NCBI RefSeq assembly: GCF_000425225.1
Contig: NZ_AULJ01000018.1
Coordinates: forward strand, 1-64,000
DNA length: 64,000 nucleotides
Direction of reading: 5' to 3'
Source: Pontibacillus marinus BH030004 = DSM 16465
Lineage (GTDB): Bacteria > Bacillota > Bacilli > Bacillales > BH030062
The notes under the pieces were generated by a model that saw only the letters and a program-made list of their open reading frames with translations, did not search any database and was not told the DNA's origin. Both the position numbers and the translations under genes were made by a program. Numbering within the stretch: the first letter of the stretch is position 1; each line of letters starts with the position of its first letter. Shown here piece by piece: positions 4,697 through 42,912 of this stretch.

Positions 4697-4842
4697 TATT
4701 CGGGCGATCGTGACCTTGTTTCAGGCGGCCACAAAGCATGTTCAGGCGTTTATTATCGAGTTTCAGTCTATCTCATCAGGTTTCCGGGCTATCCCAGGAG
4801 ATTTTCAGGCGATCCTCCCATATTTCCTGGCGAATGATAAAA
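4697..4842. repeat. 21-bp phased tandem array C5
   Basis: Seven degenerate units. The C of the conserved half TTTCAGGCGAT falls at 4701, 4722, 4743, 4764, 4785, 4806 and 4827, which is exactly every 21 bp. The other half of each unit is unrelated between copies. The array ends against the secG terminator (4848-4879). It has the same core as array C4 at 56.5 kb, in the opposite orientation. No credible gene lies between 4491 and 4877. Confidence 0.8.
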
Positions 4843-5111: not shown

Positions 5112-5250
5112 GTGATCCACCTCCTATAAGACGTGCAAATACCTACAGATAAATTTAGCATAAAACTAGCATTTGGGCAACAACATCTTCCATTCGAATT
5201 TTTTTAATATTATTTTATTTTGCATATTAGTTGAACCTTTGCCGTTAATT

Positions 5251-5290
5251 TGATATCTTTTGATTGGTTTTGATTGAAAATGATTATTTA
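5251..5290 (+). promoter_or_regulatory. Probable FruR operator: four TGAT direct repeats at 10-bp period
   Basis: TGAT occurs at 5251, 5261, 5271 and 5281, with TGATTG at two of them, directly upstream of fruR. DeoR-family sugar regulators often bind such helically phased direct repeats. I cannot place the -10 with confidence (TTGATT near 5260 with an AT-rich -10 near 5284-5290 is possible). Confidence 0.5.
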
Positions 5291-5334
5291 TGAAAAGGCT
5301 TCCTTATAGAAAATAATGGATCGGAGGGATTCCT

Positions 5335-6087
5335 ATATTAACACCTCAACGCCATCAAATCATTATAAACATACTTAATGAACAAGAAACAGCTAAAATC
5401 CAAGAACTAGTGGATGCTACGGGCGCCTCTGAAGCGACCATAAGACGAGATCTCAGTCAGTTGGAGAACGATAATAAGCTAAAGCGTGTTCATGGCGGTG
5501 CATCTGTTCTTCACCAAAAAAGTGAAGAATTAAGTATCCCAGAGAAATCAACGAAACATTTAGATCAAAAGCAACTCATCGCCCGTTTTGCGGCTAGTTT
5601 AATACGTGAAGATGATTGTATTTTTCTTGATGCTGGAACAACAACGTACCAAATGATTCCTTATTTAAAGGATCGAAATATTACGGTTGTAACAAACGGA
5701 TTATCTCTTCTTGAAGCATTGATGGAATATAAGGTTCAGACGTATTTAACTGGGGGTTTTGTAAAATATAAAACAAAAGCCCTTGTTGGTCAGGGAGCGT
5801 ATCAAACGTTATCCCAGTATCGTTTTGATAAATGCTTCCTTGGCGTTAATGGTGTCCATCCAAACCATGGTTATACCACTCCAGATCCAGAAGAAGCATT
5901 CATCAAACAGTCTGCTTTGTCACAATCACAGGAAGCTTATGTGCTTGGTGATGCTTCTAAATTGAATGAGGTTACGTTTGCTAAAATTGCAGACCTATCA
6001 CAAGCCCAGTTCATCACGAATGAAACCCAACAAGAAAGGGTATCCCCTTACCAAGAGAAAACCACAGTAAAGGTTGTGACATCATGA
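5335..6087 (+). CDS. fruR: DeoR-family fructose operon regulator FruR, AUA start
   Basis: A 250-aa DeoR-family repressor of fructose use; the inducer in this family is fructose-1-phosphate. The N-terminal helix-turn-helix (KIQELVDATGASEATIRRDL, about 20-40) is followed by the sugar-phosphate sensor domain (DAGTTTYQM; LTGG; GVNGVH). The first canonical start (GTG 5410) would cut away the HTH's first half. Reading back in frame to the stop at 5314 gives no ATG, GTG or TTG. GGAGGG at 5323-5328 is correctly placed for ATA at 5335, exactly where relatives have ATG before LTPxRHQ. The stop overlaps fruK by 4 bp. Confidence 0.88.
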   Translation: MLTPQRHQIIINILNEQETAKIQELVDATGASEATIRRDLSQLENDNKLKRVHGGASVLHQKSEELSIPEKSTKHLDQKQLIARFAASLIREDDCIFLDAGTTTYQMIPYLKDRNITVVTNGLSLLEALMEYKVQTYLTGGFVKYKTKALVGQGAYQTLSQYRFDKCFLGVNGVHPNHGYTTPDPEEAFIKQSALSQSQEAYVLGDASKLNEVTFAKIADLSQAQFITNETQQERVSPYQEKTTVKVVTS

Positions 6088-6998
6088 TTTATACCGTTAC
6101 ATTAAGTCCTTCCGTTGATTACATTATGCATGTTGATCAATTTCACGAAGGTGAGTTAAACCGAGCTTCAAAAACGTTTTATTATGCGGGAGGAAAAGGG
6201 ATCAACGTGTCTCGCGTTCTTAAACGATTGGATATTAAAAACACAGCACTCGGCTATATTGGTGGTTTTACTGGCAGATTTATAGAAGAATATCTTGAAT
6301 CTGAACAAGTACAACACCAATTTATTGAGACAGAATATCCGACTCGAGTAAACGTAAAGCTCAAATCAGATGAAGAATCTGAAATCAATGGACCTGGTCC
6401 TGATATTTCAGAAGATCAACAAAACCAACTTTTAAAACAAGTGGATCAACTACAACCTGATGACTATCTTGTAGTCGCTGGAAGTATTCCGAAAACCATT
6501 CCTGCTACCTTCTATAAGGAAATGGCGAAGCTTTGTGAGCAAAATAATGCTCATTTCATTGCTGATACATCAGGTCAAGCTTTAGAAGAACTCGTGGGAC
6601 TACGCACATTCTTACTTAAACCAAATCATCATGAACTTGGAGAGCTTTATAACACAAGCATAGAAACCCAGGAAGATGCCATCACATATGCGCGCAAACT
6701 TGTTGATCAAGGTGCCGAGCATGTCATTGTTTCCATGGGTGGTCAGGGAGCAATTTTTGTTAGCAAGGATCATACCTATTCCTGTAACGTTCCTAAAGGG
6801 ACAGTCAAAAACTCAGTTGGAGCTGGGGATTCTGTTGTCTCAGGATTTCTTGCTTCTTACAGCCAGAACAAAGATCTCAGTCAAGCATTTAAACAAGGAG
6901 TTGCTGCAGGAAGCGCCACAGCTTTTAGTAACGACCTAGGCACCAAAGAAGATATAGAGAAGCTTCTATCTGAGATTGAAGTTCAAGAACATGCATAA
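6084..6998 (+). CDS. fruK: 1-phosphofructokinase
   Basis: A 304-aa PfkB/ribokinase-family enzyme that phosphorylates fructose-1-phosphate (made by FruA) to fructose-1,6-bisphosphate using ATP. Signatures: GGKGINVSRVL near 37-47 for sugar binding and the catalytic NSVGAGDSVVSGF near 248-260, with GAGD as anion hole and base. Translationally coupled to fruR (ATGA) and 15 bp ahead of fruA. Confidence 0.95.
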   Translation: MIYTVTLSPSVDYIMHVDQFHEGELNRASKTFYYAGGKGINVSRVLKRLDIKNTALGYIGGFTGRFIEEYLESEQVQHQFIETEYPTRVNVKLKSDEESEINGPGPDISEDQQNQLLKQVDQLQPDDYLVVAGSIPKTIPATFYKEMAKLCEQNNAHFIADTSGQALEELVGLRTFLLKPNHHELGELYNTSIETQEDAITYARKLVDQGAEHVIVSMGGQGAIFVSKDHTYSCNVPKGTVKNSVGAGDSVVSGFLASYSQNKDLSQAFKQGVAAGSATAFSNDLGTKEDIEKLLSEIEVQEHA

Positions 6999-7013: not shown

Positions 7014-8963
7014 GTGAAAATTACTGATTTATTAAAAAAAGACACCATGATTTTAGAGCTTGATTCAGATTCAAAACCTGAAATTATCGATGAATTAGTT
7101 GCAAAGCTCGATGAAGCAGGTCGTTTGAATGATAAAGAAGAATTCAAACAAGCTATTCAAGCGCGTGAAGACCAAAGTACAACAGGGATTGGCGAGGGTG
7201 TGGCAATCCCACATGCTAAAACAGCAGCTGTAAAAGAACCAGCGATTGCGTTTGCACGCTCCCAAAATGGCGCTGATTATGAATCACTTGACGGTCAGCC
7301 TACACATCTATTCTTTATGATTGCAGCTTCAGAAGGGGCTAACCAAGAGCACTTAGAAACGCTTTCTAGCTTATCTTCCTTATTAATGGATGCAAGCTTC
7401 CGTGAAAAGCTGTTAGAAGCAGAGTCCAAAGATAAAATCATAGAACTCATTAATGATAAAGAGTCTGAAGGTGATGAGGAAGAAGAAGCTGAAGAAGAAT
7501 CGACTTCAGAAGATCATGAAGAAGCTTATGTCGTAGCTGTTACAGCTTGTCCTACAGGAATTGCACACACATACATGGCTGCAGATAAGCTAAAAGAAAC
7601 AGCTAAAGAAATGGGCATTAAGATTAAAGTTGAAACAAACGGTTCAAGCGGTGTAAAAAATGCCCTTACTAGTGAGGACATTGAAAGAGCTACCGGCGTT
7701 ATTGTTGCAGCTGATATTGAAGTTGAGACAGATCGTTTTAAAGGAAAACCTACTTTAACTGTCCCCGTCGCAAAAGGGATTCACGAACCGAAGAATCTAA
7801 TTGAGAAAGCTGCTAATGGAGATGCACCGATTTATGAAGGTGGCGGAAATGCAGCTGGTGGTGAAGAAGGTGAAGATGGATCCTTTGTAGGTGGAGGCGA
7901 GAAAAAAGGCTTCTATAAACACTTAATGAATGGTGTATCCAACATGCTTCCATTCGTTGTAGGTGGCGGGATTTTAATTGCCTTATCTTTCTTATGGGGA
8001 ATTAATGCAGCAAACCCAGATCATCCATCTTATAACCAATTTGCTGGATGGTTATCTACCATTGGTGGAGGGAAAGCATTCTTCCTCCTCGTACCTGTAC
8101 TAGCAGGATTTATTGCACAAAGTATCGCAGGTCGTCCAGGTTTAGCACCAGGTATGGTTGGTGGTCTTATTGCTATTCAGGAAACAGGTGGTATTGAAGG
8201 CGCCGGAAATGGATCAGGTTTCTTAGGTGGACTTATTGCAGGTTTCTTAGCAGGTTATGTGGTTCTTTTAATACAAAAAGGACTTACCGTATTGCCTGAC
8301 TCTCTAGACGGATTAAAACCTGTATTGTTCTACCCTGTATTTGGTTTACTAATTACCGGTATCATTATGATCTTAATCAACCCTCCCCTCGTTTCCATTT
8401 ATGTTGGGCTACAGGATTGGTTAAACGGATTAGGAGATTTAACAATCGTTCTTGGCCTTATCTTAGGTGGAATGATGTCAGTTGATATGGGTGGACCGAT
8501 TAACAAAGCAGCCTACACCTTTGGTATTGCTATGATTGATGCAGGAAACTACGCACCAATAGCGGCTATTATGGCCGGAGGAATGGTTCCACCAATTGGA
8601 CTGGCTCTTGCTACGACATTTTTCAAAAATAAATTTACACAGCAGGAACGTGAAACAGGTAAAACAGCTTACGTTATGGGGGCTTCCTTTATTACGGAAG
8701 GCGCGATTCCATTCGCAGCAGCCGATCCAGCTCGCGTTATAACTTCTTCCGTAATTGGATCTGCCATAGCAGGTGCTCTTGTTATGTTATTCGGCATTAC
8801 ATTACAGGCACCACATGGAGGAATTTTCGTCATTCTATTGGTAAACAGCAATATTTTTGGTGGCTTATTAGCACCTTTACTTTACCTTGTAGCTATTATT
8901 GCCGGCTCAATCGTAACAGCTATTTTAGTTGGATTATTAAAAAAAGATGCTAAAAACACTTAA
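7014..8963 (+). CDS. fruA: PTS fructose transporter subunit IIABC
   Basis: A 649-aa membrane permease that imports fructose while phosphorylating it to fructose-1-phosphate. IIA (1-150) has the phospho-His67 in GVAIPHAK. An acidic Glu-rich linker follows (about 150-170). IIB (about 172-270) has Cys179 in TACPTGIAHT. IIC (about 300-645) has many hydrophobic helices starting near NMLPFVVGGGIL. GTG start with AAGGAGGT at 6999-7006. Order fruR-fruK-fruA as in Bacillus; HPr and EI follow directly. Confidence 0.96.
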   Translation: MKITDLLKKDTMILELDSDSKPEIIDELVAKLDEAGRLNDKEEFKQAIQAREDQSTTGIGEGVAIPHAKTAAVKEPAIAFARSQNGADYESLDGQPTHLFFMIAASEGANQEHLETLSSLSSLLMDASFREKLLEAESKDKIIELINDKESEGDEEEEAEEESTSEDHEEAYVVAVTACPTGIAHTYMAADKLKETAKEMGIKIKVETNGSSGVKNALTSEDIERATGVIVAADIEVETDRFKGKPTLTVPVAKGIHEPKNLIEKAANGDAPIYEGGGNAAGGEEGEDGSFVGGGEKKGFYKHLMNGVSNMLPFVVGGGILIALSFLWGINAANPDHPSYNQFAGWLSTIGGGKAFFLLVPVLAGFIAQSIAGRPGLAPGMVGGLIAIQETGGIEGAGNGSGFLGGLIAGFLAGYVVLLIQKGLTVLPDSLDGLKPVLFYPVFGLLITGIIMILINPPLVSIYVGLQDWLNGLGDLTIVLGLILGGMMSVDMGGPINKAAYTFGIAMIDAGNYAPIAAIMAGGMVPPIGLALATTFFKNKFTQQERETGKTAYVMGASFITEGAIPFAAADPARVITSSVIGSAIAGALVMLFGITLQAPHGGIFVILLVNSNIFGGLLAPLLYLVAIIAGSIVTAILVGLLKKDAKNT

Positions 8964-9284: not shown

Positions 9285-11006
9285 ATGAGTCACATTAAAG
9301 GAATCGGAGCATCTAGCGGTATAGCTATTGCGAAAGCATACCGTATGGAAGCACCTGATCTTTCATACGATAAAAAAGATATTGATAGTCCAGATCAAGA
9401 AGTTCAACGTTTCCAAGACGCTATTGAAACGTCTAAAGGTGAACTTGAAAAGATTAAAGATCACGCGTTAAAAACACTTGGAGAGGAAAAGGCGGAAATC
9501 TTCTCTGCTCATCTACTTGTTTTAAGTGATCCAGAGCTACTTCAGCCAATCCAAGATAAAATCAAATCAGAAAATGTAAATGCTGAGGCTGCACTTGATG
9601 AAACAGCAAATATGTTCATCGACTTGTTCAAAAACATGGATAACGAATACATGCGCGAGCGCGCTGCAGACATTCAGGACGTAACGAAGCGTGTTATGGC
9701 TCACCTTCTTAACGTAACGTTCCCTGATCCCGCTTTAATTGATGAAAAAGTTGTTATTGTCGCTGAAGACTTAACACCTTCTGATACAGCTCAATTAAAC
9801 AAAGAGTTCGTACAAGGCTTCACAACAGATATTGGCGGCCGTACATCTCACTCTGCAATCATGGCTCGTTCTCTTGAAATTCCAGCAGTAGTTGGAACGA
9901 AAGAAGTAACAGAAACGATTAACCAAAATGACATGGTAATCGTAGATGGTATTGACGGTGACGTAATCGTAAACCCATCAGATGAACAAATTGAAGAGTA
10001 CAAGCAAAAACAAGCAGACTTCGAAAAGCAAAAGCAAGAGTGGGCGAAGCTAAAAGATGAGTCTACAAAAACTGCTGATGGTCAACACGTTGAGCTTGTT
10101 GCAAACATCGGTACACCAGACGATGTAGACGGCGTACATGGGAATGGCGGCGAAGGTGTTGGCCTTTACCGTACAGAGTTTCTATACATGGGTAAAAGTC
10201 AGCTCCCAACTGAAGAAGAGCAATATGAAGCATACAAAGCTGTTCTTGAATCAATGGGATCAGACAAGCCTGTAGTTGTGCGTACACTAGATATTGGTGG
10301 CGACAAAGAGCTTGAATATCTTGACCTTCCTGAGGAAATGAACCCATTCCTTGGCTACCGTGCGATTCGCTTATGCCTAGAGCGTGACGATATTTTCCGT
10401 ACACAGCTTCGCGCTTTATTACGTGCTAGCGTATACGGAAACTTGAAGATCATGTTCCCAATGATCGCTACTCTTGGCGAGTTCCGTCAGGCAAAGGCAC
10501 TTCTTGAAGAAGAGAAAGCAAACTTGAAGTCTGAAGGTACTGAGGTTTCTGATAGTATCGAAGTTGGTATGATGGTTGAGATCCCAGCAACAGCTGTTAT
10601 CGCGAAGCAGTTTGCAAAAGAAGTTGACTTCTTCTCTATCGGAACGAACGACTTAATTCAATATACAATGGCTGCTGACCGTATGAACGAACGCGTCTCT
10701 TACCTATACCAGCCATACAACCCAGCGATTTTAAACCTAATCAATAACGTCATCGAAGCAGCACACGCAGAAGGCAAATGGGCTGGCATGTGCGGTGAAA
10801 TGGCAGGAGACGAAATCGCAATCCCTATCCTTCTTGGCTTAGGCTTAGATGAATTCAGTATGAGCGCAACATCCATCTTGCCAGCTCGTACTCAAATCCT
10901 TAGCCTTTCTAAAGAAGAAATGGCATCTTACAAAGACGAGATCCTTTCAAAAGATACATCTGAAGAAGTTGTTGAATTTGTTAAGGAGAAAACAGGTCAG
11001 AAATAA
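9285..11006 (+). CDS. ptsI: PTS phosphoenolpyruvate-protein phosphotransferase (Enzyme I)
   Basis: A 573-aa EI that takes phosphate from PEP and passes it to HPr. The N-terminal HPr-binding and phospho-His domains carry His189 in [12 protein letters not shown]. The C-terminal PEP-binding TIM barrel has [19 protein letters not shown] and the active-site Cys region MCGEMAGD. It starts 3 bp after ptsH. Codon use in this gene is smoother than in fruK, as expected for an abundant protein. Confidence 0.97.
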
Positions 11007-11021
11007 ATTCTTTCTTATGAG

Positions 11022-11062
11022 AACACCTCTACAAGCTAGTATGCTTGTAGGGGTGTTTTTTC
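11022..11062 (+). terminator. Intrinsic terminator of the fru-pts operon
   Basis: A 15-bp stem (11022-11036 / 11043-11057) with one wobble and T6. Confidence 0.9.
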
Positions 11063-11077
11063 TCTGGTTGGCGTCGC

Positions 11078-11533
11078 TTTCGCTCGGGTAGGCACTACTT
11101 TCGCTCGGGTCGGCGCTGCTTTCGCTCGGGTCGGCGCTACTTTCGCTCGGGTCGACGCTGCTTTCGCTCGGGTTGAGGCTGCTTTCGCTCGGGTCGACGC
11201 TGATTTCGCTCGGGTTGACGCTACTTTCGCTCGGGTTGAGGCTGCTTTTGCTCGGGTCGACGCTGCTTTCGCTCGGGTCGACGCTGCTTTCGCTCGGGTT
11301 GAGGCTGCTTTCGCTCGGGTCGACGCTGATTTCGCTCGGGTTGACGCTACTTTCGCTCGGGTTGAGGCTGCTTTTGCTCGGGTCGACGCTGCTTTCGCTC
11401 GGGTCGACGCTGCTTTCGCTCGGGTCGACGTTGCTTTCGCTCGGGTCGACGTTGCTTTCGCTCGGGTCGGCACTGCTTTCGCTCGGGTCGGCACTGCTTT
11501 CGCTCGGGTCAGCGCTACTTTCGCTCGAGTCCA
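11078..11533. repeat. 21-bp phased tandem array C1 (22 units)
   Basis: Twenty-two head-to-tail 21-bp units begin at 11078 and every 21 bp to 11519. The first half TTTCGCTCGGGT is almost invariant (TTTTGCTCGGGT twice). The second half is one of a few variants (TCGACGCTG, TTGAGGCTG, TTGACGCTA, TCGGCACTG and others). Units 5-10 (11162-11287) are repeated exactly as units 11-16 (11288-11413). As 21 is a multiple of three and the unit has no stop, several frames stay open, so the predicted Ser/Pro- or Leu-rich proteins here are artefacts. It lies between the converging ptsI and coaA terminators. Confidence 0.95.
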
Positions 11534-11576
11534 TAGCACAGTTTGCTGATTACTCTTTCTCTATGTATAAACCACA

Positions 11577-29654: not shown

Positions 29655-29896
29655 TGCTTTCAGGCGATCTTATGGCATTTTCGGGCGCTGCGGTACGGGA
29701 TGCAGGCGGGGGAAACTCGTTTGCGAGCGCTCCAGGACGAAATGCGAGCGGCTCGAACTCGTTTGCGGGCGCTCCGGTACAAAATGCGGGCGGGTCATCC
29801 TCATTTGCGATCGCCCCCCTTCAAATACGAGCGCTCCGGCACCAAATGCGAGCGCCTAAACCTCATTTGCGAGTGCACCACCCTCATTGCGATTCA
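29655..29896. repeat. 21-bp phased tandem array C3 (12 units)
   Basis: Twelve degenerate units; the first C of the core falls at 29661, 29682, 29703, 29724, 29745, 29766, 29787, 29808, 29828, 29849, 29870 and 29890, which is 21 bp apart except two steps of 20. Most cores read TTTGCGAGCGC or ATGCGAGCG. The first unit reads TTTCAGGCGATC, the core of array C5. ORFs of 89-127 aa drawn through it are artefacts. The eno terminator abuts it; 29557-29654 shows nothing else. Confidence 0.85.
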
Positions 29897-42647: not shown

Positions 42648-42912
42648 TTTCGCTCGGGTACGCACTGCTTTCGCTCGGGTACGCACTGCTTTCGCTCGGG
42701 TACGCACTGCTTTCGCTCGGGTACGCACTGTTTTCGCTCGGGTGCGAGCTGCTTTCGCTCGGGTACGAGCTGTTTTCGCTCGGGTGCGAGCTGCTTTCGC
42801 TCGGGTGCGAGCTGCTTTCGCTCGGGTGCGAGCTGCTTTCGCTCGGGTACGCACTGCTTTCGCTCGGGTACGAGCTGTTTTCGCTCGGGTGCGAGCTGCT
42901 TTCGCTCGGGTC
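42648..42912. repeat. 21-bp phased tandem array C2 (13 units)
   Basis: Thirteen units starting at 42648 and every 21 bp to 42900. The half TTTCGCTCGGGT is as in array C1; the other half is ACGCACTGC, GCGAGCTGC or ACGAGCTGT, not the C1 set. Predicted 89-145 aa repeat proteins here are artefacts of the stop-free 21-bp unit. Confidence 0.95.

Follow-up and report, generated by a model that had tools for sequence, protein, structure and literature searches.

AUA is among the rarest start codons of bacteria and is known to initiate translation in a few genes, including another carbon-metabolism repressor of related bacteria. In Staphylococcus aureus, AUA is the start codon of infC and ccpN, and AUU is that of cvfC1; extended Shine-Dalgarno (SD) helices precede these codons (PMC13009471). 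Weak initiation at cvfC1, ccpN and citZ yielded about 10% of the level of an AUG reporter, with ccpN reaching up to 30% in rich medium, and the AUA start of ccpN was reported as conserved in Bacillus subtilis (PMC13009471). Non-Watson-Crick pairing at the third base of the start codon is tolerated in vitro but weak, and the weaker pairs are disfavoured by IF3 (PMC10158994). The same type of codon change is known as an allele: the available text of PMC12864459 reports an Escherichia coli O104:H4 isolate with an ATG-to-ATA allele of rpoS and lowered RpoS. As for the gene considered here, the available text of PMC10765703 describes S. aureus FruR as a repressor of its own fruRKT operon that is released by fructose-1-phosphate.

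We analysed a 64,000-nucleotide stretch of Pontibacillus marinus DSM 16465, a halophilic relative of Bacillus (hereafter, the window), in which fruR is the first gene of a fruR-fruK-fruA operon (Table 1). We infer that fruR is translated from AUA at 5335, with a probability of roughly 0.82. An in-frame TAA occupies positions 5314-5316, and the frame is open from 5317 up to the TGA at 6085; from 5317 it reads TGG ATC GGA GGG ATT CCT ATA TTA ACA CCT CAA CGC. As the preliminary description had pointed out, no ATG, GTG or TTG occurs in this frame between the TAA at 5314 and the GTG at 5410, while a GGAGGG motif (5323-5328) precedes the ATA with a spacer of 6 bases. Its claim that reading from 5335 regains the full DeoR helix-turn-helix also held. 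When the protein was read from ATA, HTH_DeoR (PF08220) matched residues 6-61 over profile positions 1-56 of 57 with 63.8 bits, and DeoRC (PF00455) matched with 167.9 bits; when it was read from the GTG at 5410, the HTH_DeoR match shrank to profile positions 25-56 with 40.9 bits. To place this start in the context of the window, the 62 open frames with a length of 150 amino acids or more were surveyed. Only fruR (1/62) has an SD motif and a near-cognate codon that precede every canonical start while canonical starts are absent within 15 codons, and since it is unique among these frames the pattern is more than would be expected by chance. Apart from its genes, the window contains two arrays of tandemly repeated 21-bp units in which TTTCGCTCGGGT is abundant (11076-11531, 21.7 copies; 42648-42911, 12.6 copies) and a 42-bp array (29678-29809). 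The first of these follows directly on the ptsI terminator and yields a false minus-strand ORF of 195 amino acids (10947-11534).

Table 1. Features of the fruR region, in coordinates of the window
Feature	Position	Strand	Basis or remark
Promoter-like TTGAAC-N17-TATCTT upstream of fruR	5231..5259	+	Consensus match, spacing kept in second ATA species (G004); putative function
Two TTTTGATTG repeats, operator-like (5258-5266, 5268-5276)	5258..5276	+	At expected transcription start; putative FruR binding
SD GGAGGG with start-proximal extension	5323..5330	+	AGGGAT fits AGGNAT of PMC13009471
fruR, DeoR-family repressor, 250 aa	5335..6087	+	TGA stop (6085) included; PF08220, PF00455, dN/dS 0.06-0.08
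ATA, proposed start codon of fruR	5335..5337	+	Common to G004; other members of the genus have ATG
GTG, first canonical in-frame codon, rejected as start	5410..5412	+	No SD; cuts helix-turn-helix
fruK, 1-phosphofructokinase	6084..6998	+	TIGR03828; ATG overlaps fruR stop (ATGA)
fruA, fructose PTS EIIABC	7014..8963	+	TIGR01427, TIGR00848, TIGR00829

The same ATA was found in a second species of the genus, G004, which is assembled as one contig and whose FruR is 96% identical. Between the window and G004, bases 5310-5360 do not differ (51 bp, beginning ahead of the SD and reaching codon 9), while over the whole gene the two sequences have diverged to a dS of 0.38 (NG86) or 0.31 (YN00). In the other five members of the genus that have the gene, and in the nearest other genus (G008), the homologous column holds ATG and the protein starts MLTP. 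Across 107 Bacillales fruR loci, the column contained ATG in 67, TTG in 24, GTG in 13, CTG in one and ATA in two, the last being the window and G004. The proposed AUA falls exactly at the column where relatives start, whether with ATG, TTG or GTG. The single CTG belongs to the fruR of another member of the order, G112 (L056), where only a badly positioned TTG occurs three codons before it, and is possibly another non-canonical start. Next, 397 genomes of the order were searched for further DeoR genes starting with ATA, ATT or ATC, using the degenerate pattern GG + gap + ATA/ATT/ATC + LTxx[EQ]R[HQ]. Among the matches recognisable as DeoR starts, only the known pair was recovered; those of the other matches that were inspected in their sequence context did not encode DeoR N-termini, and the remainder were assessed by the short match only. 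The simplest history, and the most likely one, is a single G-to-A change from an ancestral ATG in the ancestor shared by the two species, so that they probably represent one mutational event. The ATG-to-ATA origin suggested in the preliminary description is in line with this history, whereas its suggestion of a recent mutation is refuted if taken at the level of the strain: because both species carry ATA at a dS of 0.31-0.38, the change is older than their split. Separately, the intergenic region beyond secG (4700-4834) carries repeated TTCAGGCGATC-like words that diverge between the two ATA species.

The gene is under purifying selection and shows no decay. Omega between the two ATA genes was 0.056 (NG86) or 0.076 (YN00), the same level as the 0.05-0.08 found for ATG-start ortholog pairs and for paralog pairs. 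In codons 2-25 of the ATA pair, a stretch that a start at the GTG at 5410 would leave outside the protein, third positions took 7 of the 9 changes (binomial p = 0.008), and three amino acid changes were observed (I-to-L, I-to-L, N-to-K). Because of this third-position bias, the stretch between ATA and GTG appears to have stayed translated in the ATA state, provided that the common ancestor already had ATA.

The ribosome-binding site is strong, as computed against the 3' end of the genus's own 16S rRNA, GGATCACCTCCTTTCT. The SD duplex of fruR reached -14.1 kcal/mol, compared with -10.7 as the median of fruR genes that start with ATG. However, 33 of the 107 fruR sites were as strong, 33 of 107 had the extended SD pattern, and strong sites also preceded TTG and GTG starts. 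SD strength backs the use of AUA but is ordinary among fruR sites. No unusual leader structure was found at fruR (z of -0.08 and -1.05).

FruR is likely to regulate its own operon, since S. aureus FruR represses its own operon and the window has a promoter-like element with TTTTGATTG repeats; similar repeats occur in other members of the genus. The ATGA overlap would permit translational coupling of fruR and fruK. The AAAGG site ahead of fruK is identical in ATA and ATG species, and no compensating change at this site was seen when the two were compared. A leader element, TGAAAAGGCTTCCT at 5291-5304, kept in the genus as TGAAAGGGCTTCCT, is cre-like (CcpA) and lies just downstream of the predicted promoter. 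Both ATA species also carry a paralog, fruR2 (in G004 at L010), which starts with ATG, is 62% identical to fruR and could cover part of the function of FruR. In the second fructose locus of the window's genome (L061 5442-8167, G000:C1), fruR2 stands before a second fruA, and fruK is absent both between and next to them.

Initiation at the AUA would use the ordinary fMet tRNA (anticodon CAU), whose pairing with the codon would be imperfect at the third base alone (a C-A mismatch), and the N-terminus of FruR would accordingly be Met-Leu-Thr-Pro. The strong, start-proximal SD would hold the site. Synthesis of FruR per mRNA would then be several-fold below the AUG level. As the operon is probably under the repression of FruR itself, less FruR would be expected to lower the set point of repression and to raise basal expression of fruK and fruA, an effect that may be buffered in part by autoregulation and possibly by fruR2. 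A dedicated AUA-reading initiator tRNA was considered and rejected: no tRNA with anticodon UAU was present among the tRNA genes located, in a draft that lacks the 16S 3' end and may miss tRNAs beside rRNA operons. A genome-wide shift to AUA starts was likewise rejected, as in this genus ccpN (located with a query sequence that served this purpose solely) starts with ATG or GTG and infC apparently with ATT. The apparent ATT start of infC (L071, G000:C72) lies behind TGGAGGTGG, like infC in other bacteria.

Weak initiation of fruR as a form of regulation, also raised in the preliminary description, is plausible by analogy with the AUA start of S. aureus ccpN (PMC13009471), but a regulatory benefit is clearly less probable than the AUA start itself. 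Tuning of the repressor level by AUA would agree with its persistence in two species, the undiminished constraint on the protein and the well-matched SD. If instead AUA is used without any regulatory value, drift would have fixed a mildly deleterious weak-start allele, tolerated through autoregulation and fruR2. Such tolerance, to which we give somewhat less than an even chance, fits the restriction of ATA to a single clade, the ordinary SD strength and leader, and the ATG-start paralog kept in both species. It fits less well with the survival of ATA through a species split under full constraint on FruR, given that a canonical start is a single base change away, and with ccpN, a close precedent in which AUA was kept. 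Retention of one base at a dS of 0.31-0.38 does not by itself demonstrate selection for ATA. A broader proposal is that AUA with an extended SD is a recurring throttle on Bacillales carbon-metabolism repressors (CcpN, FruR), by which FruR synthesis would be tied to growth state or IF3 level and the fructose operon would be less repressed in poor nutrients; we regard this as speculative and rather unlikely.

The remaining explanations dispute the AUA start itself. One is that fruR is decaying, or is made only from the GTG at 5410 with a truncated helix-turn-helix; in its favour, this GTG is the first canonical in-frame start. However, an omega of 0.06-0.08 and the third-position bias in codons 2-25 are at odds with either scenario, and so are the missing SD before this GTG and the loss of HTH_DeoR profile positions 1-24, which makes them improbable. 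Even less credible is the synthesis of FruR by a +1 frameshift from the ATG at 5316 (ATG GAT CGG AGG ...), which enters the fruR region in another frame. This ATG is present in both ATA species and its frame is open for about 20 codons, but it has no SD, overlaps the SD of the AUA and is missing from the other genus members, and a known slippery site was not evident. A sequencing error, which the preliminary description had also considered, or a point mutation confined to the strain, might be suspected in a 77-contig draft assembly but is refuted by the independently sequenced and assembled G004, which has the same ATA; that one base-calling error should occur in both genomes is very unlikely.

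No report of an AUA start for fruR was found in the literature searched, and the gene would thus be a new, phylogenetically supported addition to the small known set. Gene callers that accept only ATG, GTG or TTG would annotate a shortened FruR without an intact DNA-binding domain, which makes the gene an annotation trap. The ATA clade and its ATG relatives, with the same operon, form a natural experiment on start-codon tuning of a metabolic repressor.

Four described systems resemble this locus in different respects. The rpoS allele, as presented in the available text of PMC12864459, involves the identical single-base change in the start codon of a regulator, but it is a polymorphism at strain level, whereas the fruR ATA is shared between species. 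S. aureus FruR is likewise a DeoR-type repressor whose gene opens a self-repressed fructose operon, and the available text of PMC10765703 makes no mention of a non-canonical start for it. The gene infC, encoding IF3, shares with fruR a near-cognate start (AUU in E. coli, AUA in S. aureus) and a strong SD; its weak start serves feedback of IF3 on itself, whereas the product of fruR is a DeoR repressor and not an initiation factor. The closest counterpart is ccpN of S. aureus and B. subtilis. Its AUA is kept across genera and was shown by ribosome profiling and reporters, while that of fruR is known from sequence in one clade, and FruR belongs to the DeoR family and not to CcpN. In both cases, a helix-turn-helix repressor of carbon metabolism in Bacillales has an AUA codon behind an SD of the extended pattern, kept between species. 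In conclusion, fruR would be the second carbon-metabolism repressor among the few bacterial genes with an AUA start.
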